Of a stretch of DNA of 64,000 nucleotides, positions 3,999-14,736 are shown piece after piece. The notes beneath the pieces were generated by a model that saw only the letters and a program-made list of their open reading frames with translations, made no database searches and was not told the origin of the DNA. Numbering within the stretch: position 1 is the stretch's first letter; every line of letters begins with the position of its first letter. The position numbers and the translations under genes were made by a program. The stretch is from positions 3,787,910 through 3,851,909 of the forward strand of contig NZ_CP031165.1 of NCBI RefSeq assembly GCF_003344865.1, written 5' to 3'. This DNA comes from Euzebya pacifica (GTDB taxonomy: Bacteria > Actinomycetota > Nitriliruptoria > Euzebyales > Euzebyaceae).

Positions 3999-4628
3999 GT
4001 GCCACCCGAACTGACCAGCCGCCAGCAGGCCATCCTCGACACCATCCGCCGCGCCGTGCAGGAGCGGGGATACCCGCCGTCCGTGCGCGAGATCGGTGAC
4101 GCCGTGGGGTTGAAGTCCCCCTCCAGCGTCCACGCCCAGATGAACACGCTGGAGGAGATGGGGTTCATCCGCCGCAACCCCGCGCGCCCCCGTGCCATCG
4201 AGGTCATGGTCGACGGCGGCGACCCGCTCGAACCCACCTCCCCCACCCGACACGTCCCGCTGGTCGGCGAGATCGCCGCCGGTGGGCCGATCCTGGCGGA
4301 GGAGCAGATCACGGAGCACCTCGCCCTGCCCGAGTCGATGGTGGGACAGGGCACCATCTTCGCGTTGACCGTCCGCGGTGAGTCGATGATCGAGGCGGGG
4401 GTGCTGCCCGGCGACGTCGTCGTCATCCGCCAGCAGCCGACGGTCGAGCAGGGCGAGATGTGCGCGGCGCTCATCGACGGCGAGGCCACGGTGAAGTTCT
4501 TCCGCCGCACCAAGTCGGGCGAGGTCTTCCTCGACCCGGCCAACGAACGCTACGAACCGATCCCCGTCCCACGGGACGCCGACAGCGCGATCATGGGTCG
4601 CGTCGTCACCGTCATGCGTTCCCTCTAG
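3999..4628 (+). CDS. lexA: LexA repressor
   Basis: SOS repressor that cleaves itself when stimulated by RecA filaments. It has 209 residues: an N-terminal winged helix (about 1-65) and a C-terminal S24 peptidase domain. The cleavage site is A94-G95 in EIAAGGP, the nucleophile S129 in RGESM, and the general base K166 in ATVKFF, all intact. The GTG start at 3999 has CAGGAGG 8 nt upstream. It is divergent from the chiZ-like gene through a shared LexA-box region and is probably autoregulated. It ends convergently, overlapping the stop region of the next gene by 4 bp. Confidence 0.97.
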   Translation: MPPELTSRQQAILDTIRRAVQERGYPPSVREIGDAVGLKSPSSVHAQMNTLEEMGFIRRNPARPRAIEVMVDGGDPLEPTSPTRHVPLVGEIAAGGPILAEEQITEHLALPESMVGQGTIFALTVRGESMIEAGVLPGDVVVIRQQPTVEQGEMCAALIDGEATVKFFRRTKSGEVFLDPANERYEPIPVPRDADSAIMGRVVTVMRSL

Positions 4629-7600
4629 GTCGGCGACCCGGCCGGGGCCGCGAACAGCGGCAACGCACGTTCCCACGCGAGGTGACCGACCTCGGCGCCG
4701 ATGATCCGGCCGGCGTGGTCGTCAGCAGGGATGTGGATGCCGCCGTGGATGCGCGACCGCCCGGCCTGGTCGGCGGCGTCGGCGTAGGTCGCCCAGGTCA
4801 GCACGACGTCGCCCGCGGGTCCGCCCTCGAACGCCAGGTCGCCTGCCGGGACCGTCCAGCCGAACGACCCGCCCGGGAACCACGGGCTGCCGGTCGCCGC
4901 GGTCATGACCTCGGCCGCAGCTCGGCTGAACGTGGAGTGCCCCGACACGTAGCCGGCGAAGGCCGGTGAGACGAAGGTCGCCTGCTGGTAGGGCACCCAC
5001 TCCTCGGCGTGGAGCCACCTGACCGCCGGGTCATCCGGATCGACGCGGGGCGCCCATGCCCGCACGACGACGCGGCCCTCACCGAGTCCCTCGTGCCGTC
5101 CGCCGGGTGCGGTCGTGGCAGCCGAAGCGACCTCCACCACGTCATCGACCAAGGGCAGCCCGTCCGGGTGGTACGCGGCACCGTCGGGGTCGCTGGACTG
5201 GCCCAGGCCGCCGAGGTGGCGGATCAACGAGATCGGTCGAGGTGAGTCGTGGGCGGTCTTGACGCCCCACGCGGCGACCGCAGCGTCGTGCAGGGCACCG
5301 TTGAGGACGAGGTGCAGCGACACCTCCCACGTCAACCGGTCCAGGGCCGGCCCGCTCCCCCCGAGCAGCCGTTCGGCCGGAGACATCGCGTCGGTGACCG
5401 CCCGCGCGATCACGTTCCAGTGGCCGGGCGGGGTCTCGGAGTGCGGCCCGTCGGCCCAGAACTCCGCGAGCACCCGACCCAGGTCGCCACGCAGGACCGG
5501 CTGCGCTGGCCACGGCTGGCCGGCCGTGGGGTCGACGGGATGTCCGGTTCCCTCGTCGGTGCCCAGCGGGTTGTTCCCCCAGCCCCCCGGCCCCGCATCG
5601 ACGACGACACCGTCGGCGGGGTCGAGCTGGCTGGACGCCCGCAGCACGTCCACCAGCTGGCGTCGCAGCTCCTCGCCACCGTCGGGGTCGTCGAGCCGGG
5701 GCGGCGGACCGGGGTCGATCGGCACGCCGTCGGGGTCGTCGGGCAACGCGAACGTGGCCACCCCGCCCCAGCCGTACCCGAGGAAGGCCTGCGGCTCGGC
5801 TGGCTGGGCGATCCCGTTCTGGGTGACCACCCGATCCAGCTGCAGGGGCTGCCAGGCGTCCGGGTCGTCCATGTCCGCGCCGGGCAGCCGCACGACGAGG
5901 GGACGGTTGGCCGGCTGGTGGGTCGACCGGTCGGCGGATCCGTCCCCATCGGCCACCGCCAGGACCGCTGCCGCGACGCGACTTCCGACCGCACGGGCGG
6001 CGGCGTCGTCGGACCGGAAGCACTCCGCGGCCAGGGCGGCCGGCAGGGATCGGGCGACGTGGTCGCCCGCTCGGCCATCGCCGTAGCGCGACGCCAGGAC
6101 GTCGTGGGCGGCTTGGGCGATCGCGGCCTCGACCGCCCGACGGTCGACGGCCACGGCCGCGGCCGCGGCGAGGGCCACCGCCTGCGCGTCGACGTCGGCC
6201 AGCACCGTCGGCACCCCCTCGACCAGTGCCGCCCGGCTGTCCCACATGGCCGCGGACAGGTGGTACAGCGTCCGGGCGTGCGCCGTGGGGTCCGGCAGGT
6301 CGTGGCGGATCGCCTCGAGCGCCACGTCGATCCAGCGAGCCACCGCCGACGGGGCCTCGGCGCTGCGATCCGCGCACGCGACGGCCGTGGCCGCCACGTC
6401 GCGCTGCGGCTCGAAGCGATGCAGGACGGTGCTGCCGTCCCGTCCGACCTCGAGCACCCGGTCGGTGGGGACGTCCTCGACCACGACGGAGTGCCCGTCG
6501 GGCCACGTCACCTCGACAGTCCGCACCCGGTCGGCCGTCCCCAGGCCGAACAACGGCCGTGGGTCCTCCGTCGACAGGTAGCTCGAGCCCGCTGTGACCG
6601 TCCGCGCGGCAACGGTGCCGTCCGCCATGGTGACGACGACACGGGTCCCCGGCTGCCGGCCCTCGGGCTGCACGCGCAGCGCCGCCCCTCCCCTTCCCTG
6701 GTTCTGGAGGAGGACGAGGGGTTCGCCGACGCCGACCACGACGACATCGGGATCCCCGTCGTTGTCGTAGTCGGCCACCGCGGTGCCCCGGGCGTTGTGG
6801 CGGCCGACGGCATCCAGCCCCCAGCCGCCGTCGACCACGCGCAGCCCGCCGGAGGTCCCCGCATAGGCCAGCAGCGGCTGGGCGGTCGTGGCGGGATCGG
6901 TGCCCATCGGGATCGCACCGTGCCCGACGAGCACGTCGTCGTGGCCGTCGGCGTCGAGGTCGACCACGCCGATCCCCCAGCCGGTCAGCCCCTCCCCGAA
7001 CGCCGGGACCCCGAAGGTGGCGCGGCCGTCGACGAACGCCCAGGGCTCGGCCGCCTCGGGCTGGTGCAGGGCGTGGCGCTGCTCGCCCATGTTGGTCACG
7101 AGCAGCTCGGCCATGCCGTCGCCGTCGAGGTCGCCGGACGCCGTGCCCATGCCCGACCCGTCGTCGTCGACGCCCACGGCAGAGGCCACGTCGACGAGGC
7201 GTGCGTGCCCGGGGGTCGAGTCGTTGCGATACAGCCGGTCGGGGTCGGTGTCGTTGGCGACCAGCAGGTCCCGGTCGCCGTCGTGGTCGACGTCGACGAA
7301 CGTCGCGCCCAAGCCGTAGCGGGGGCCGTCGACGTCCAGCCCAGCCTCGCTGCTGACGTCGACGAAGCGGGCCCGAGCCCCCTCCCCCGGGCCGAGGTTG
7401 TGCAGCAGCAGGTCGGCGACCGGTGCGTGGCCGCGCGGGAACCCGCCTGATGCCGCGGGCAGCGGGGTGTTCCGGTCGACGTAGCCGGTCAGGACCACGT
7501 CGAGGCGACCGTCGCCGTCGACGTCGTCGGCTGCAGCACCCGCGTGCCAGCCCGAGACGTGCAGTCCGGCGCGGCCGTCGTCGCGGGTGAACGTGCCGTC

Positions 7601-8098
7601 CCCGTCGTTCCAGAGCAGGGTGCTGGTCCGGTCGGAGGTGACCAGCAGGTCGACGTGGCCGTCACCGTCGAGGTCGGCGGCCAGGCAACCCTGCCCGCGC
7701 ACCTGCAGCGCCGTCCCCGACTCCGTGCCCACGTCGACGAACCGTCCCTCGACGTTGCGGTACAGCGTCGAGGTCGGCAGCCCGCCCTCGTCCAGCCAGC
7801 GCTGGTGTTCGCCGTCGGACCAGGTGGAGACCACGTAGAGGTCCTGCCAGCCGTCACCGTCGGCGTCCAGCCAGCAGACCCCTCCCCCCATCATCGCCGC
7901 GGGGTCGGGCGACGACCCCCAGCGGAAGGCCCCGTGCCGGGTGTCCAGCCCGACCCGGTCGGCGACGTCGACGAGGGTCGTGGCGACGGCGGCCCGGTCC
8001 GGCGAGGGCGCCGCCGCCGCGAGGACGGTGGTGGTGGCCGCGAGCACCGCGACCACCACGAGCGCGGTCAGCGGCCCCGTGCCACGACCTCGCCCCAT
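4625..8098 (-). CDS. Secreted fusion of FG-GAP/ASPIC-UnbV repeats with a vanadium-haloperoxidase-like domain
   Basis: A 1157-residue exported protein. The signal peptide is at about residues 1-30. Next come at least seven calcium-loop FG-GAP repeats (for example DADGDGWQDL, DLDGDGHVDL, DYDNDGDPDV) and an ASPIC/UnbV-like segment with SSYLSTEDPRPLFGLG. The C-terminal half has every active-site motif of vanadium haloperoxidases and acid phosphatases: K947 then RP (954-955), SGH at 1052-1054, and S1115-R1116 with H1122 and D1126. It could be an extracellular vanadate-dependent peroxidase, or a phosphatase that kept the fold. I start at ATG 8098, where the signal peptide begins; the upstream extension to 8251 is arginine/serine-rich and not convincing. 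The gene follows the ABC permease by only 13 bp and may share its transcript. Substrate unknown. Confidence 0.85.
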   Translation of the reverse strand: MGRGRGTGPLTALVVVAVLAATTTVLAAAAPSPDRAAVATTLVDVADRVGLDTRHGAFRWGSSPDPAAMMGGGVCWLDADGDGWQDLYVVSTWSDGEHQRWLDEGGLPTSTLYRNVEGRFVDVGTESGTALQVRGQGCLAADLDGDGHVDLLVTSDRTSTLLWNDGDGTFTRDDGRAGLHVSGWHAGAAADDVDGDGRLDVVLTGYVDRNTPLPAASGGFPRGHAPVADLLLHNLGPGEGARARFVDVSSEAGLDVDGPRYGLGATFVDVDHDGDRDLLVANDTDPDRLYRNDSTPGHARLVDVASAVGVDDDGSGMGTASGDLDGDGMAELLVTNMGEQRHALHQPEAAEPWAFVDGRATFGVPAFGEGLTGWGIGVVDLDADGHDDVLVGHGAIPMGTDPATTAQPLLAYAGTSGGLRVVDGGWGLDAVGRHNARGTAVADYDNDGDPDVVVVGVGEPLVLLQNQGRGGAALRVQPEGRQPGTRVVVTMADGTVAARTVTAGSSYLSTEDPRPLFGLGTADRVRTVEVTWPDGHSVVVEDVPTDRVLEVGRDGSTVLHRFEPQRDVAATAVACADRSAEAPSAVARWIDVALEAIRHDLPDPTAHARTLYHLSAAMWDSRAALVEGVPTVLADVDAQAVALAAAAAVAVDRRAVEAAIAQAAHDVLASRYGDGRAGDHVARSLPAALAAECFRSDDAAARAVGSRVAAAVLAVADGDGSADRSTHQPANRPLVVRLPGADMDDPDAWQPLQLDRVVTQNGIAQPAEPQAFLGYGWGGVATFALPDDPDGVPIDPGPPPRLDDPDGGEELRRQLVDVLRASSQLDPADGVVVDAGPGGWGNNPLGTDEGTGHPVDPTAGQPWPAQPVLRGDLGRVLAEFWADGPHSETPPGHWNVIARAVTDAMSPAERLLGGSGPALDRLTWEVSLHLVLNGALHDAAVAAWGVKTAHDSPRPISLIRHLGGLGQSSDPDGAAYHPDGLPLVDDVVEVASAATTAPGGRHEGLGEGRVVVRAWAPRVDPDDPAVRWLHAEEWVPYQQATFVSPAFAGYVSGHSTFSRAAAEVMTAATGSPWFPGGSFGWTVPAGDLAFEGGPAGDVVLTWATYADAADQAGRSRIHGGIHIPADDHAGRIIGAEVGHLAWERALPLFAAPAGSPT

Positions 8099-8111
8099 GT
8101 CCCTCGACACC

Positions 8112-9334
8112 TCAGGCTGCGCGGCCGCGCTTGGAGATCGAGTCGACCAGCACCGCCGCGAGGAGCACCAGGCCGGTGACGACGAACTTGACGCCCGCCG
8201 GCAGGCCCAGCAGGTCCATGCCGTTGCTGACCGACGCGATGACGAGGGCACCCAGCAGGGCCGAGATGACCCGGCCCCGACCGCCGAACAGGCTGGTCCC
8301 GCCGATCACCGCTGCCGCGATGACCTCCAGCAGCAGGTTGCCGCTGCCGGTATTGGTGGACACCGACCGCAGCCGGGACGCGAGGATCACGCCGCCGACG
8401 CCCGCCATGAAGCTGGAGATCATGAAGACGGTGATGCGGAGTCGCTCGACGTCGATGCCGGCACGCCTGGCGGCTTCGGGGTTGCCGCCGACGGCGTACA
8501 CGTGGCGTCCGAACCGCGTGCGAGAGGCGACCACGGTCCACCCGACGAGGAACACCAGCACCACGAGCGCCACGACGGGTACCCCTCGGTCGAGGTTGGC
8601 GTAGAAGGCGGCGAACCCGGTGACCAGCGCCAGGCCGGCAACCTGGAGCGCCAGGACCGTGGTCGGCTTGGCGTCGAGGTCGAGGGAGCGGCGCGAGCGC
8701 TGCCGCAGCAGCTGGACGGCGGCGTACCCACCGGTGACCCCCAGCGCCAGCAGCCAGCCCCACACGTCGGGCAGGTAGGTGTTGGACAACCCGAGGACGA
8801 CGTCGTCCTGGAGGATGATCGTGCCGGCCTGGCTGGTCTCGGTGGTGAGGATCAGCACCACACCGGACCATGCGAGGAAGCCGGCCAGGGTCACCACGAA
8901 CGACGGCACGCCGAAGGAGGTGATCACGAGCCCCTGCAGGAAGCCGATGAACGTGGTCACCGCCAGCCCCGCGGCGATGGCCAACCACCAGGGCCACCCG
9001 GGATCCCCGGGTCGCAGCAGCAGGGTGGTGACGACCCCGCCGACCGCGCTGACGTAGGCCACCGACAGGTCGATCTCGGCGATGAGCAGCACGAATACGA
9101 TGCCGATGCCGAGGATGGCGATGCCCGACATCTGCAGCAGCAGGTTGACGAAGTTGGCGCTGGTGAGGAACACCGGCTCCAGGGCACCGAAGACCACGAC
9201 GATGAGCGCCAGGCCGACGAGGATCGGCAGGGAGCCGAGGTCGCCGGCCTTCGTGCGGGCCCACCAGGCGCGGACGTAGCTGCCCAGGTCGGCGTTGGCC
9301 GGCTGTGCGAACGCGGGGGTCTCGATGGGGGCGG

Positions 9335-9338
<4 letters not shown>
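8112..9338 (-). CDS. Sugar-type ABC transporter permease (XylH/RbsC family)
   Basis: Inner-membrane permease of 408 residues, beginning MTAPIETPAFAQPAN, with about ten hydrophobic segments. Family features include LVITSFGVPSFVVTLAGF, a cytoplasmic loop with GGNPEAARRAGID (the ATPase-coupling region) and IGGTSLFGGRGR. It should form the channel for a solute delivered by the lipoprotein encoded upstream. The ATG at 9338 overlaps the TGA of the ATPase gene (ATGA), so translation is probably coupled. The fused ABC-kinase protein encoded upstream carries a paralogous ATPase domain that might dock on this same permease; that is inference. The exact sugar cannot be read from sequence. Confidence 0.88.
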
Positions 9339-10126
<788 letters not shown>

Positions 10127-10214: not shown

Positions 10215-11393
10215 CTAGCGGTCGGCCGGGCAGAACTCCTCGAAGTCGCCGACGCAGATCTCCTCCCACGTCCGGAAGCCGTCGGCGATGACGGTGTCCG
10301 CGACGTTGTCGGCGGTGACCGCGACGGGCTCCAGGGCGATGAACGGCAGGTCGGCCGACCCGTTGTTGATGGTCTGGCCGTCGGCCAGTGCGGCCACGTC
10401 CTCGCCGTTGAGCAGCGCGATAGCGGCTTCGGCGGCCGCGGCAGCCTCGGCGGCGATCGGCTTGTAGACCGTCATGGTCTGGTCGCCCGCGAGGATGTTC
10501 TGGATCCCACCGACGGTGGCGTCCTGCCCGGAGACGGGGAAGGGGTCGAGTCCGGCGTTCTTGCGCGCCGCGATCACGGAGTTGGCCAGGCCGTCGTTGG
10601 CGGCGAACACCGCGTTCACGTCGTTGCCGGCGTCGACGAGGATCTGCTCGAAGATGGTCAGCGCCTCGGCGTTGTCCCACTCGGGGACCGACTCGTCGGC
10701 GACGAGCTCCCAGTCACCGGCCTCCACCCGCGGCTCCACGGTTTCTGCGTAGCCCTCGCGGAAGAGGGTGGCGTTGTTGTCGGTCGGGCCACCGTTGAGC
10801 ATGACCACGCGGGGCGTCTCGACACCCAGGTCGTCGATGGCGGGCTCGAGGACGCTGGCCATGGTGCGGCCGACCTCGACGTTGTCGAAGGAGACGTAGA
10901 CGTCGGCTCCGGGACCCTCGATGGTGAGGCGGTCGTAGTCGATCACGGCCACGTCGGCCGAGCGGGCGAGGTCGATGATGGCCGCACCCGATCCGGAGTC
11001 GAGGTTGACGAACAGGATGACCGACGCGCCGGAGGCGATGGCCTGCTCGGCCTGGCTGATCTGCTGCTGGGCGTCCCCCTCGGCGTTGACGATGTTGTAC
11101 TCCACCCCTGCCTCGTCGAAGGCCTGCTCGAAGAACCGGCGGTCGTCGGTCTCCCAACGAGCGGACGAGGCGCTGTCGGGCAGCAGCACCCAGATGCTGC
11201 CGTCCCCGGCAGTCGCCGTGTCGCCGCTGTCGTCCCCCTCGTCAGCGGTGTCGTCGGCCTGCTCGGTGGTGTCGGTCGCGTCGCTGCCCTCGTCTGCGCC
11301 GCTGTCGGCGTCGTCGCTGCTGCTGCAGGCGGTCGCGACGACCACCAGCGCGAGCAGGAGCATGAGGATTCTCGTGATCCCGGTTCGTGCCAT
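10215..11393 (-). CDS. ABC transporter substrate-binding lipoprotein (XylF/RbsB type)
   Basis: Periplasmic-binding-protein fold lipoprotein of 392 residues. The start MARTGITRILMLLLA leads to a lipobox-like ATAC and an acidic Ser/Asp/Thr linker of about 45 residues before the folded part (GSIWVLLPDSASSARWETDD). The remainder matches type-1 sugar-binding proteins, for example VNLDSGSGAAII, VFAANDGLANSVI and SGQDATVGGIQNI. I chose ATG 11393 (GGAG 7 nt upstream) over an in-frame ATG at 11426. It is the first gene of the importer operon. The response regulator gene ends 122 bp upstream, and four direct repeats in that gap look like its operator. Ligand unknown; a pentose or similar sugar is the family default. 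Confidence 0.88.
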   Translation of the reverse strand: MARTGITRILMLLLALVVVATACSSSDDADSGADEGSDATDTTEQADDTADEGDDSGDTATAGDGSIWVLLPDSASSARWETDDRRFFEQAFDEAGVEYNIVNAEGDAQQQISQAEQAIASGASVILFVNLDSGSGAAIIDLARSADVAVIDYDRLTIEGPGADVYVSFDNVEVGRTMASVLEPAIDDLGVETPRVVMLNGGPTDNNATLFREGYAETVEPRVEAGDWELVADESVPEWDNAEALTIFEQILVDAGNDVNAVFAANDGLANSVIAARKNAGLDPFPVSGQDATVGGIQNILAGDQTMTVYKPIAAEAAAAAEAAIALLNGEDVAALADGQTINNGSADLPFIALEPVAVTADNVADTVIADGFRTWEEICVGDFEEFCPADR

Positions 11394-11457
11394 CTCGTGT
11401 CTCCAGTCTGGTTCGGCTCGGCCCATGCCGGCCCTGCGAGCACGCTAGTAACGATCC

Positions 11458-11515: not shown

Positions 11516-12211
11516 TCAGCCGGACAGCCGGTAGCCGGTCCGTGGCTCGGTGATGATCAGCTCGGGACAACCGGGGTTCTCCAGCTTGGCGCGCAGCCGC
11601 CGGACGTAGGCGCGGGTGTACTCCGTCTCGGTTTCGTAGGCCTGCCCCCAGACCCGGCGGAGCAGCATGCCGTGGGTGAGGACCTTGCCCTGCTCGACCG
11701 CCAGCTCGCGCAGGACGGCGAACTCCGTGGGGGTGAGGTGCACACGGGCATCATCGACGGTGACCCCCTGCGCTTCGAGGTCGATGACGACGTTGCCGAC
11801 CGCGATCCGTTGTGCCGACGGTGTCGCCGTCTCGGCCGGCCGGGTGCGCCGCAACGTGGCGGTGATGCGGGCGAGCAGCTCGTTGATGCCGAAGGGCTTG
11901 GTCATGTAGTCGTCGGCACCCTGGTTGAGGGCACGGACCTTGTCGGACTCTCCGCCGCGGGCCGAGATGACGATGATGCCGACCTCCGACCGGGCACGGA
12001 TGCGGCGGCACAGCTCGAACCCGTCGGCTTCGGGGAGCATCAGGTCGAGCAGGACGACGTCGGGCTGCTCTCGGTCGACCAGGCGCTCCACTCCCCGTCC
12101 GTCGGTGGACAGCACGACGTCGTACCCGCGGGCGGTCAGGTTCGCGCGGATCAGGTCGGAGATGTTCGGGTCGTCCTCGACCACGAGCACCCGGGTCCGA
12201 GCGATGGTCAT
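11516..12211 (-). CDS. OmpR/PhoB-family response regulator, partner of the ABC-kinase fusion
   Basis: DNA-binding response regulator of 231 residues. The receiver has acidic residues E12-D13-D14, phosphoacceptor D56 in VVLLDLMLP, and K105 in TKPFG. The C-terminal winged helix ends in the typical YTRAYVRRLRAKLE and RTGYRLSG. It looks closest to the KdpE branch by eye. Its ATG at 12211 overlaps the TGA of the kinase gene, so the two are translated together. It probably binds the repeats just downstream of its own gene and controls the sugar importer. A complete, standard regulator with no missing residues. Confidence 0.93.
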   Translation of the reverse strand: MTIARTRVLVVEDDPNISDLIRANLTARGYDVVLSTDGRGVERLVDREQPDVVLLDLMLPEADGFELCRRIRARSEVGIIVISARGGESDKVRALNQGADDYMTKPFGINELLARITATLRRTRPAETATPSAQRIAVGNVVIDLEAQGVTVDDARVHLTPTEFAVLRELAVEQGKVLTHGMLLRRVWGQAYETETEYTRAYVRRLRAKLENPGCPELIITEPRTGYRLSG

Positions 12212-14736
12212 CGTGTGGCCTCCGTGTGGTGGCTGCGGCCACCGCGATCGTCCAGGTCCCAGCCGGGGTCCTCCTCGGTGGGTCCCTCCACCGGCAGGCC
12301 GAGCGTGATCGTCGTCCCGCCCGGGCCGGTGGACACACCCACGGTCCCGCCGTGGGCGACCACGATGCCACGGGTGATGGACATCCCGAGCCCAGCGCCG
12401 TCGCCCCTCCCCCTGATGCCGGCGACGAACGGGGACTCCGCGACGTGGTCGGGCAGCCCCGGTCCGCGGTCGGCGACGACGATCTCCACGACGTCGGAAT
12501 CGGGTCGCCGGACCATGCGGGCACCGACGCGGATCGGCGTGCCGTGCGGGGTGTGGCGCACGGCGTTGCCGAGGAGGTTCACGAGCGCCTGCTCGATCCG
12601 GCCGTGGTCGGCCACGATCGGCGGCAGGTCGTCGGGGACCTCGACGGCGATCGCCTCGGCGGGGGTGGTGGGCACGCAGGCGACGGCTGCCTCGATGATC
12701 GGCTTCAGCTCGCACCAGTGCAGCTGCAGGCGCAGGACACCGGCCTCGATGGCCGAGGCGTCCAGCAGGTCGGTGACGAGGTCGCCGAGGCGGTCGGACT
12801 CGTGGGCGATCGTGTCGAGGAAGCGACGGGTGGAGGAATGGTCCCACGCGACGTCGGGCTGTCGAAGGGTGTCGGCGTAGCCGTGGATCGCGGTCAGCGG
12901 TGTGCGCAGCTCGTGGCTGAGCCGTGAGAGGAAGGTGCGCTGCAGCTCGTTGCTGCGCCGCAGGGCCGTGGCCTCCTGTCGCGCGGCCTCGTGGGCACGT
13001 CGTTCGAGGGCGAGCAGCACGGAGTGGGCACCGTCGACGAGCAGCTCGGCAGCCCCGTCGCGGGGGGCCTCGCCCGCGGCCCAGCGGGCGGCCAGCACGT
13101 GACGGCGTTCGGGACCGGCGACCACGGCGATCAGCACGGCCCGGCCGTCGTCCTGCCTGGTCACGACGGCGTCGGGGGCCAACGGCACGTCGGTGCGGCG
13201 GGCCCATCCCCCATCGCCCTCCCCGACGACGTGGCCGACCACCTGCTCGCCGGGCTCGTGGGCGTCGGGACCGCGGGCACTGGCCTCCTGCGCACTGGCC
13301 TCGCGCGCGTCGGCATCGTCGGGGCCGGACAGGGCCAGCCCCTCGGCGCCGAGGCCCACCCGCAGGGCTTCCAGGGCGATGACCAGGCCGGCGTCCTCAC
13401 CGACGGGACCAGCGAGGGTCTCCAGCACCTGCCGGAGCGTCTCGAGGGTTCGGTTGCGACGGGTGACGGTCGCGAGGAACCGGTCGCGTTCCACGGCGGC
13501 TGCAGCCTGCGCGGCATACAGCGACGCGAGCTCCAGCGCTTCGTCGGTCACGCCGCCTGCGGCCGTACCGTAGCCCGACAGGGTGCCGAGCACCTCGTGT
13601 CCGGCGACGAGCGGCACGGCCCACATGCTGCGGATGCCCGCGGCCACGAGGGCGGCGGCATCGGGGCTGTCGTGGTCGCGGAGGTCGGGGACGACCACCG
13701 GCCGACGGGTGCTGGTGCACTCCGCGAGGGGGGTGCCCGGACGGCCGCTCGCGCCCCCGACCTCGAGCCGGTCGAGGTGGCCCCGGAGTGGGCCGGAGAG
13801 TCCGATGGCTGCGCCGAGGCGGAGCAACGCCGTGTGCCCCTCCCCCACCGGGCCGTCCCCGGACCGGGGGCGGTGCAGGTGCAGCGCGAGCCGCGGTTGT
13901 TCCAGCGCGACCCCGACCGCGGAGACGACCAGCGGCAGGACGTCGGTGGGTTCGACGTCGGCGAGCTGGTCGACGAGGGAGCGCAGCCCGTGCAGCTGCT
14001 GCCGGGCCAGGACGTCGGCCTCGAGCCCGGACATGCAGCCGCGCAGCAGGTCGGGGGTCAGGTCGGGTCGGCGGACGTCGTGGCTGATGACGCCGTCGCG
14101 GAGGACGAGGACTCGGTCGGCGACCTCGCAGACGAGCTCGAGGTCGTGGCTGATCAGCAGGATCGCGGTGCGCTGGGCCCGCATGCCCTTGAGGAGCGAC
14201 CGGACGGCGTGCACCCCCGCGGAGTCCAGCGCCCCCGTCGGCTCGTCGAGGACCAGCAGCGCCGGCGGTCGGACGAGGGTCCGCGCCAGCGCGATGGTCT
14301 GTCGTTGTCCGCCCGAGAAGGTAGCGACGGGACGGTCGGGGGCAGGCATCGCCACGCCGAGTCGGTCGAAGAGCTGCCGTGCACGGACCTGCTCGTCCTC
14401 GCGCCGGCCCAGCAACGATCCCTCCTCGCGCCCGAGGAAGAGGTTGTCGATCACGTCGAGGTTGTCGCACAGGGCGAGGTCCTGCCACACGACTTCCAGC
14501 CCCGGAGGCGGTGCGCTGCCCGTGCCGTTCAGCGCCCTCCCGTCGACCACGACCGACCCGTGGTCGGGGGCCAGCGCACCGGCGATGCAGCGCACGAGGG
14601 TGGTCTTGCCGGCACCGTTCTCGCCGACGAGGGCGATCAGCTCGTCGGGGTGCACCACGAAGTCCACCCCTCGCAGGACGTCCACGGTCGCGAAACGTCG
14701 GTGGACGTTGCGGACCTCCAGCACCCCTCGGCTCAT
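12208..14736 (-). CDS. ABC ATPase / GAF / sensor histidine kinase fusion protein
   Basis: One 842-residue soluble protein joining transport and signalling parts. Residues 1-240 are a complete sugar-type ABC ATPase: Walker A GENGAGKT 38-45, Q-loop near 85, signature SGGQRQ 141-146, Walker B with E165, switch H197. Residues 250-415 look like a GAF domain (IRSMWAVPLVAGHEVLGTLSGYG); 435-580 is a second GAF-like region with an Ala/Glu-rich linker. A HisKA domain follows with H608 in SHELRTP, then a HATPase domain with N724, DRGPG and GDGAGLGMS. No membrane segment is present, so it must find its signal inside the cell or by docking on a permease. It starts 26 bp after hflX and overlaps the regulator gene by 4 bp. 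The ATPase half resembles the importer ATPase at 9335. Domain identities are firm; direct sensing of importer activity is a hypothesis. Confidence 0.9.
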   Translation of the reverse strand: MSRGVLEVRNVHRRFATVDVLRGVDFVVHPDELIALVGENGAGKTTLVRCIAGALAPDHGSVVVDGRALNGTGSAPPPGLEVVWQDLALCDNLDVIDNLFLGREEGSLLGRREDEQVRARQLFDRLGVAMPAPDRPVATFSGGQRQTIALARTLVRPPALLVLDEPTGALDSAGVHAVRSLLKGMRAQRTAILLISHDLELVCEVADRVLVLRDGVISHDVRRPDLTPDLLRGCMSGLEADVLARQQLHGLRSLVDQLADVEPTDVLPLVVSAVGVALEQPRLALHLHRPRSGDGPVGEGHTALLRLGAAIGLSGPLRGHLDRLEVGGASGRPGTPLAECTSTRRPVVVPDLRDHDSPDAAALVAAGIRSMWAVPLVAGHEVLGTLSGYGTAAGGVTDEALELASLYAAQAAAAVERDRFLATVTRRNRTLETLRQVLETLAGPVGEDAGLVIALEALRVGLGAEGLALSGPDDADAREASAQEASARGPDAHEPGEQVVGHVVGEGDGGWARRTDVPLAPDAVVTRQDDGRAVLIAVVAGPERRHVLAARWAAGEAPRDGAAELLVDGAHSVLLALERRAHEAARQEATALRRSNELQRTFLSRLSHELRTPLTAIHGYADTLRQPDVAWDHSSTRRFLDTIAHESDRLGDLVTDLLDASAIEAGVLRLQLHWCELKPIIEAAVACVPTTPAEAIAVEVPDDLPPIVADHGRIEQALVNLLGNAVRHTPHGTPIRVGARMVRRPDSDVVEIVVADRGPGLPDHVAESPFVAGIRGRGDGAGLGMSITRGIVVAHGGTVGVSTGPGGTTITLGLPVEGPTEEDPGWDLDDRGGRSHHTEATR

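Follow-up and report, generated by a model that had tools for sequence, protein, structure and literature searches.

Two-component control of a CUT2 sugar importer is known for xylose, where XylFII-LytS/YesN has a membrane kinase that receives its input through a second binding protein. Histidine kinases coupled to transporters are also already known from BceAB-BceS, Pst-PhoU-PhoR and DctA-DcuS (PMC6978683). In the BceAB-BceS bacitracin modules of Bacillus, an ABC transporter directly controls the histidine kinase, and the regulator drives the transporter genes (PMC6978683, PMC10314905). In PstSCAB-PhoU-PhoR, a kinase and its PhoB-type regulator learn the state of an ABC importer (PMC6978683). 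Receptors related to transporters have likewise been reported (PMC11109136). In the known kinases of this sort, sensing relies on membrane helices or on bridge proteins.

A locus of Euzebya pacifica encodes a histidine kinase with an importer-type ABC ATPase in its own chain. As with BceAB-BceS, this kinase is tied to an ABC transporter, and a predicted regulator site lies at the transporter genes. However, BceS is a membrane kinase in contact with an exporter-like transporter, whereas the fused kinase is soluble and carries the ATPase of an importer. PstSCAB-PhoU-PhoR differs in its separate bridge protein, PhoU, and in a membrane kinase that has no ABC domain; XylFII-LytS/YesN differs in that its input is a binding protein and not an ABC ATPase domain. 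Among the open-access papers found, none describes a histidine kinase joined to an ABC ATPase, which does not prove that no such description exists. Databases will contain such sequences, listed as ABC proteins that are uncharacterised or wrongly named, and there is a real chance that the mechanism itself is new. If the proposal developed below is true, an importer ATPase used as kinase input would give a direct physical link from uptake state to gene expression.

The window analysed here is a stretch of 64,000 nucleotides from contig NZ_CP031165.1, in a genome of 6.37 Mb on two contigs. The system is compact, with five genes and one unique promoter element:

12208-14736, minus strand: histidine kinase of 842 aa, ABC ATPase-GAF-predicted second GAF-like fold-HisKA-HATPase
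14059-14727, minus strand: fused CUT2-type ABC ATPase domain (about residues 4-226)
14422-14493, minus strand: Q-loop and likely permease-docking patch VVWQDLALCDNLDVIDNLFLGREE (residues 82-105)
12913-12915, minus strand: codon of the phospho-acceptor His608
11516-12211, minus strand: OmpR/PhoB-type response regulator of 231 aa, overlapping the kinase stop codon
11459-11506, minus strand: four half-sites, GTTCAC/ATTCAC and TTTCAC/GTTCAC, spaced 11-20-11 start to start, the predicted regulator binding element
11442-11447, minus strand: TAGCGT, a -10-like hexamer 11 bp past the last half-site
10215-11426, minus strand: XylF/ChvE-type sugar-binding lipoprotein
9335-10126, minus strand: half-size CUT2 ATPase of the importer
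8112-9338, minus strand: GguB-type CUT2 permease, its likely coupling helix in the loop GGNPEAARRAGI from residue 284

The kinase frame is single and intact, running from an ATG at 14736 to a stop at 12210-12208. An initial annotation, made from the sequence alone, had read it as a full sugar-type ABC ATPase followed by GAF-like regions and a complete HisKA/HATPase kinase with H608 and no membrane segment, and this reading is upheld. Pfam places ABC_tran at residues 21-167 (2e-28), GAF at 318-416 (3e-13), HisKA at 599-666 (9e-18) and HATPase_c at 710-817 (1e-18). The ABC motifs are present (Walker A GENGAGKTT, Q-loop VVWQDLALCDNL, signature FSGGQRQ, Walker B with its Glu LLVLDEPT, switch ISHD), as are those of a HisKA histidine kinase (SHELRTP with H608; HATPase N and G boxes NLLGNAVRH, ADRGPGLP and GAGLGM). 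Of the GAF-like regions, one is the Pfam match, and the second has no Pfam match and is supported by predicted secondary structure only. A structure prediction built from seven sequences lays out the ABC domain at 1-236, a helix, a GAF fold at 263-397, a long helix, a second GAF-like fold at about 448-552, and then the kinase helices and catalytic domain, with low confidence in the inter-domain arrangement (pTM 0.35). Among known structures, counterparts are found for the ABC domain (Z about 26 over 231 residues) as well as for the kinase core (HK853), and PDB matches to the fusion are to its separate domains. Within its own genome, this protein alone spans ABC and kinase domains in one whole-length match. 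No convincing transmembrane helix was found in the kinase, where the best 19-residue hydropathy is 1.63 against 2.7 in the permease, nor in any other fusion. The fused kinase thus shows no sign of the two transmembrane helices with a short extracytoplasmic loop that mark Bce-type kinases.

The fusion belongs to a rare and patchy family, found in several actinobacterial families and, within the searched set, only in Actinomycetota, phyla beyond which were covered only by a narrow peptide pattern. It now counts 20 members, comprising the window's protein and 19 further homologues, one of them cut off by a contig end. Since these homologues keep the same domain order in other genomes, an assembly fusion is ruled out. 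Three come from 30 genomes of the order (85, 44 and 45% identical over nearly full length) and one more from a phylum-wide sample. A profile built on the linker-GAF region and used for wider searches matched 10 of the 395 genomes in the class of G108, and gave two matches among 249 genomes in the family of Streptomyces spongiae. The named genome collection contributed matches in Candidatus Microthrix, in S. spongiae and in several MAGs of actinobacteria. The family is sharply bounded, because profile scores drop steeply from 250 to 84 bits and no ABC domain was seen in 26 loci, of a few kilobases each, that have the weaker GAF matches. Among plasmids, the fusion had no match at 1e-50.

The kinase stop and the ATG of the regulator overlap as ATGA at 12211-12208, so the regulator is co-encoded with the kinase, as the initial annotation had proposed; a receiver plus winged-helix regulator is likewise co-encoded in 19 of 19 loci with context. 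The importer said to lie downstream is also there, beginning 89 bp past the regulator with the lipoprotein, and its ATPase is about 41-44% identical to the fused ABC domain. Sequence relatives of the permease were not found in the PDB at 1e-5. The expectation that the same domain order would always adjoin such an importer held at every locus with visible downstream sequence: wherever the contig extends past the fusion, in 19 of 19 loci counting the window, the regulator and then CUT2 importer genes lie 3' of it. Regulators of the homologous loci are 59-68% identical to that of the window, rising to 96% in L009.

This neighbourhood is constant in kind and variable in its importer. The neighbouring importers represent different CUT2 lineages, namely a half-size XylG type, a tandem-ATPase Rbs/Xyl type in Streptomyces and a mixed locus. 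Half-size ATPases occur in 15 of the 19 partner importers. Two Streptomyces loci, L074 and L097, have a tandem ATPase and an Rbs-type permease, and in L074 an Rbs-type binding protein was identified as well. At L093 (6946-12806, G660), one ATPase of another clade is accompanied by two permeases and two binding proteins that come from different CUT2 lineages, so that a XylF-GguB pair may here, for a second time, lack an ATPase of its own. The kinase operon L092 (6868-9520, G662) has two tandem XylF-type binding proteins. In one MAG the importer ATPase (L075, 11427-12258) is split across two frames, probably by sequencing error.

Analysis of the gap between regulator and lipoprotein added a link that the initial annotation did not contain. 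The element there reads GTTCAC-N5-ATTCAC-N14-TTTCAC-N5-GTTCAC, followed after 11 bp by TAGCGT. Its two pairs are the only occurrences of TTYAC-N6-TTYAC in the window (0.03 expected), and the four-site pattern, with up to two mismatches allowed, occurs nowhere else in the 6.37-Mb genome. Of 12 other genomes searched, 7 have a match with 0-3 mismatches in the corresponding gap, beside a few scattered weaker matches elsewhere. Against shuffled sequences, the four-site scan gives p 0.03 or better in 17 of 17 loci that have a gap, and in 10 of these 17, the window among them, a -10-like TAnnnT follows the start of the last half-site at a distance of exactly 17 nt. The remaining loci need a 1-bp shift or another half-site pair, judged by eye, and L019 and L096 are not significant in the strict scan of four sites plus -10. 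The element is absent from L010 and L011, which have no regulator-importer gap, and from the sequence upstream of the kinase-less importers L071, L073 and L077. No significant regulator element was found upstream of the kinase gene itself.

The PhoB-type regulator of the Pst system acts through 11-bp direct repeats, and PhoB-activated promoters have their sites directly upstream of the -10. At the sequence level, the window's element is of this kind, its direct repeats having an 11-bp spacing and preceding a -10-like hexamer. Because of this position, activation of the importer by the regulator is likelier than repression. The spacing also equals the geometry of the tandem-dimer sites of PhoP, another OmpR-family regulator, in which a strict 4-bp spacer separates 7-bp direct repeats (PMC4832192). 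Judged from sequence, the circuit is closed, with the regulator acting on its own importer and little else. Genomic linkage and promoter sites together suggest that production of the importer is switched in response to the importer's own state, and a two-component circuit dedicated to its own sugar importer is very probable.

How the kinase might read the importer can be outlined as follows. The importer-type ABC domain would be the kinase's input module, reading the state of a CUT2 sugar importer. The kinase, a dimer as in other kinases of its class, would be brought to the membrane by its ABC pair, which would dock on the permease coupling loops and exchange with or replace the transport ATPase. 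ATP/ADP-driven closing of the ABC pair would be relayed by the GAF-helix stack to the catalytic core, and nucleotide and permease state would set kinase or phosphatase activity. The kinase would in turn phosphorylate the co-encoded PhoB-like regulator, whose binding to the four half-sites before the lipoprotein gene would set importer expression. The sequence shows the domain order, the invariant linkage, the common origin of the fused ABC domains and the single conserved element; docking, dimer exchange, the direction of signalling and the sugar are inferred. The proposal as a whole, a dedicated sugar-uptake control operon with an ABC-kinase docked on the permease, seems reasonably likely; towards the docking step taken by itself we lean slightly.

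In ABC importers, as established for MalK and others, the coupling helix of the permease contacts the ATPase at the Q-loop Gln and in the residues following it. At domain level, the fused domain is nearest to the CUT2 ATPases, a family that includes XylG, YtfR and GguA; its best NCBIfam match is the CUT2 model YtfR, and it has the family's Q-loop patch. Walker A and the catalytic Glu are retained in 20 of 20 fusions, and 19 of 20 keep the Q-loop Gln and likewise the switch His. In contrast to normal CUT2 ATPases, the fused domain has a Trp before the Q-loop position in 19 of 20. Taken as means in 12-residue windows of fusions against operon ATPases, identity is 71% for residues 82-93 and 72% for Walker A, against a domain average of 41%. 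A comparison of permease-contact residues between fused domain and operon ATPase, suggested at the outset, thus finds the coupling patch kept; it detects no co-variation with the cognate partner, the patch scoring 0.583 against cognate and 0.582 against other ATPases (permutation p 0.51). Because the patch is conserved yet no nearer to the cognate ATPase, these data support a general CUT2-type docking surface on the fused domain rather than specific co-evolution.

Two operons, L010 (= L015) and L011, consist of fusion, regulator, lipoprotein and permease without an importer ATPase, so that the ABC domain of the kinase is the sole ATPase in the operon, a reading subject to the caveat that the G017 genome is only 64% complete. 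Since their permeases form one clade (100/99), the importer ATPase was probably lost in a single event. Their coupling loops have drifted (GSNPDVAARAGI and GSDARVAERAGI versus GGNAEAARRAGI) and are still recognisable. The kinase ABC signatures are degenerate (LGRGQ, LSRGQ), and the fused ABC of L010 has lost the Q-loop Gln, the signature Ser and the switch His. A role as replacement transport motor predicts the opposite of such decay, so a receptor fits the sequences better, with binding protein, permease and ABC-kinase signalling rather than transporting. The genome G023, in which the kinase operon lacks an ATPase, encodes at another place a complete and related importer without a kinase, L071 (G023:C43), of XylFGH type and 53-69% identical to the window's importer. 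No kinase or regulator match was seen near L071, and its ATPase could serve both G023 importers. If the receptor reading is true, these relatives catch an ABC importer in the course of turning into a receptor.

The suggestion that the kinase joins the permease in place of, or beside, the normal ATPase therefore survives in part. Retention of the Q-loop patch and the two operons without a separate ATPase, where the kinase offers the only one, support docking; the missing cognate co-variation (p 0.51), the probable single event behind the two ATPase-less loci with the caveats on G023 and G017, the motif losses in L010, and the pTM of 0.35 count against it. The degenerate signatures of both operons speak for a receptor over a replacement motor. 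A broader idea is put forward tentatively: the permease can take a histidine kinase as its nucleotide-binding subunit, so that one membrane complex transports or acts as a sugar receptor depending on the partner bound, and the L010/L011 importer, its transport ATPase lost, has become a pure receptor.

The main rival to docking is a free cytosolic kinase, in which the ABC domain makes no contact with the permease and serves as a soluble switch for dimerisation that depends on ATP/ADP, a metabolite inside the cell is sensed by the GAF domains, and the operon is linked through the regulator only. GAF domains commonly bind small ligands and could carry the real signal here, and a soluble enzyme agrees with the want of a convincing transmembrane segment in any fusion. 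The docking patch shows no tuning to its cognate, and the Streptomyces fusions keep the same patch despite a different importer lineage. However, such a kinase leaves unexplained why its input is a CUT2 ATPase whose QDLALCDNL...FLGRE patch is as conserved as Walker A, and why lipoprotein and permease are kept beside it in the ATPase-less operons. We consider it unlikely, and docking on the permease remains the preferred reading.

A mixed pair, in which the kinase ABC domain and the importer's half-size ATPase sit together on the permease and the output reports the ATPase cycle or its abundance, is improbable. Half-size ATPases must pair, and both their prevalence among the partner importers (15 of 19) and the pairing motifs kept in most fusions would suit it; but the tandem ATPases of Streptomyces are already paired in one chain, L010 and L011 have no ATPase to contribute, and a dimeric kinase would need to bridge two importers. 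Docking of the kinase's own ABC pair is still favoured here.

Normal CUT2 ATPases are tandem or half-size and have no kinase, whereas in the tree the fused ABC domains group together in a single clade (support 94/96), separate from all importer ATPases. Repeated recent fusion with the adjacent ATPase gene is ruled out by this single clade. A chance fusion that left the ABC domain without a role is very improbable and already disfavoured: ABC genes adjoin the kinase, easing such an event, but one origin has given 20 descendants in several families that keep Walker A, the catalytic Glu and, in 19 cases, the switch His, and the fused domain does not derive from each genome's adjacent ATPase. Most likely, the fusion had a single origin, and its descendants have been paired with several CUT2 importer lineages; with one fused clade beside varied importers, the kinase appears to have kept a CUT2 partner through changes of partner.

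At the far end of the operon, the 3' end of the permease gene is overlapped by a gene on the minus strand (4625-8158) for a protein of 1177 aa with FG-GAP repeats, an ASPIC/UnbV domain and a vanadium-haloperoxidase-like (VCPO) helical domain, which is kept at 84% in G022.
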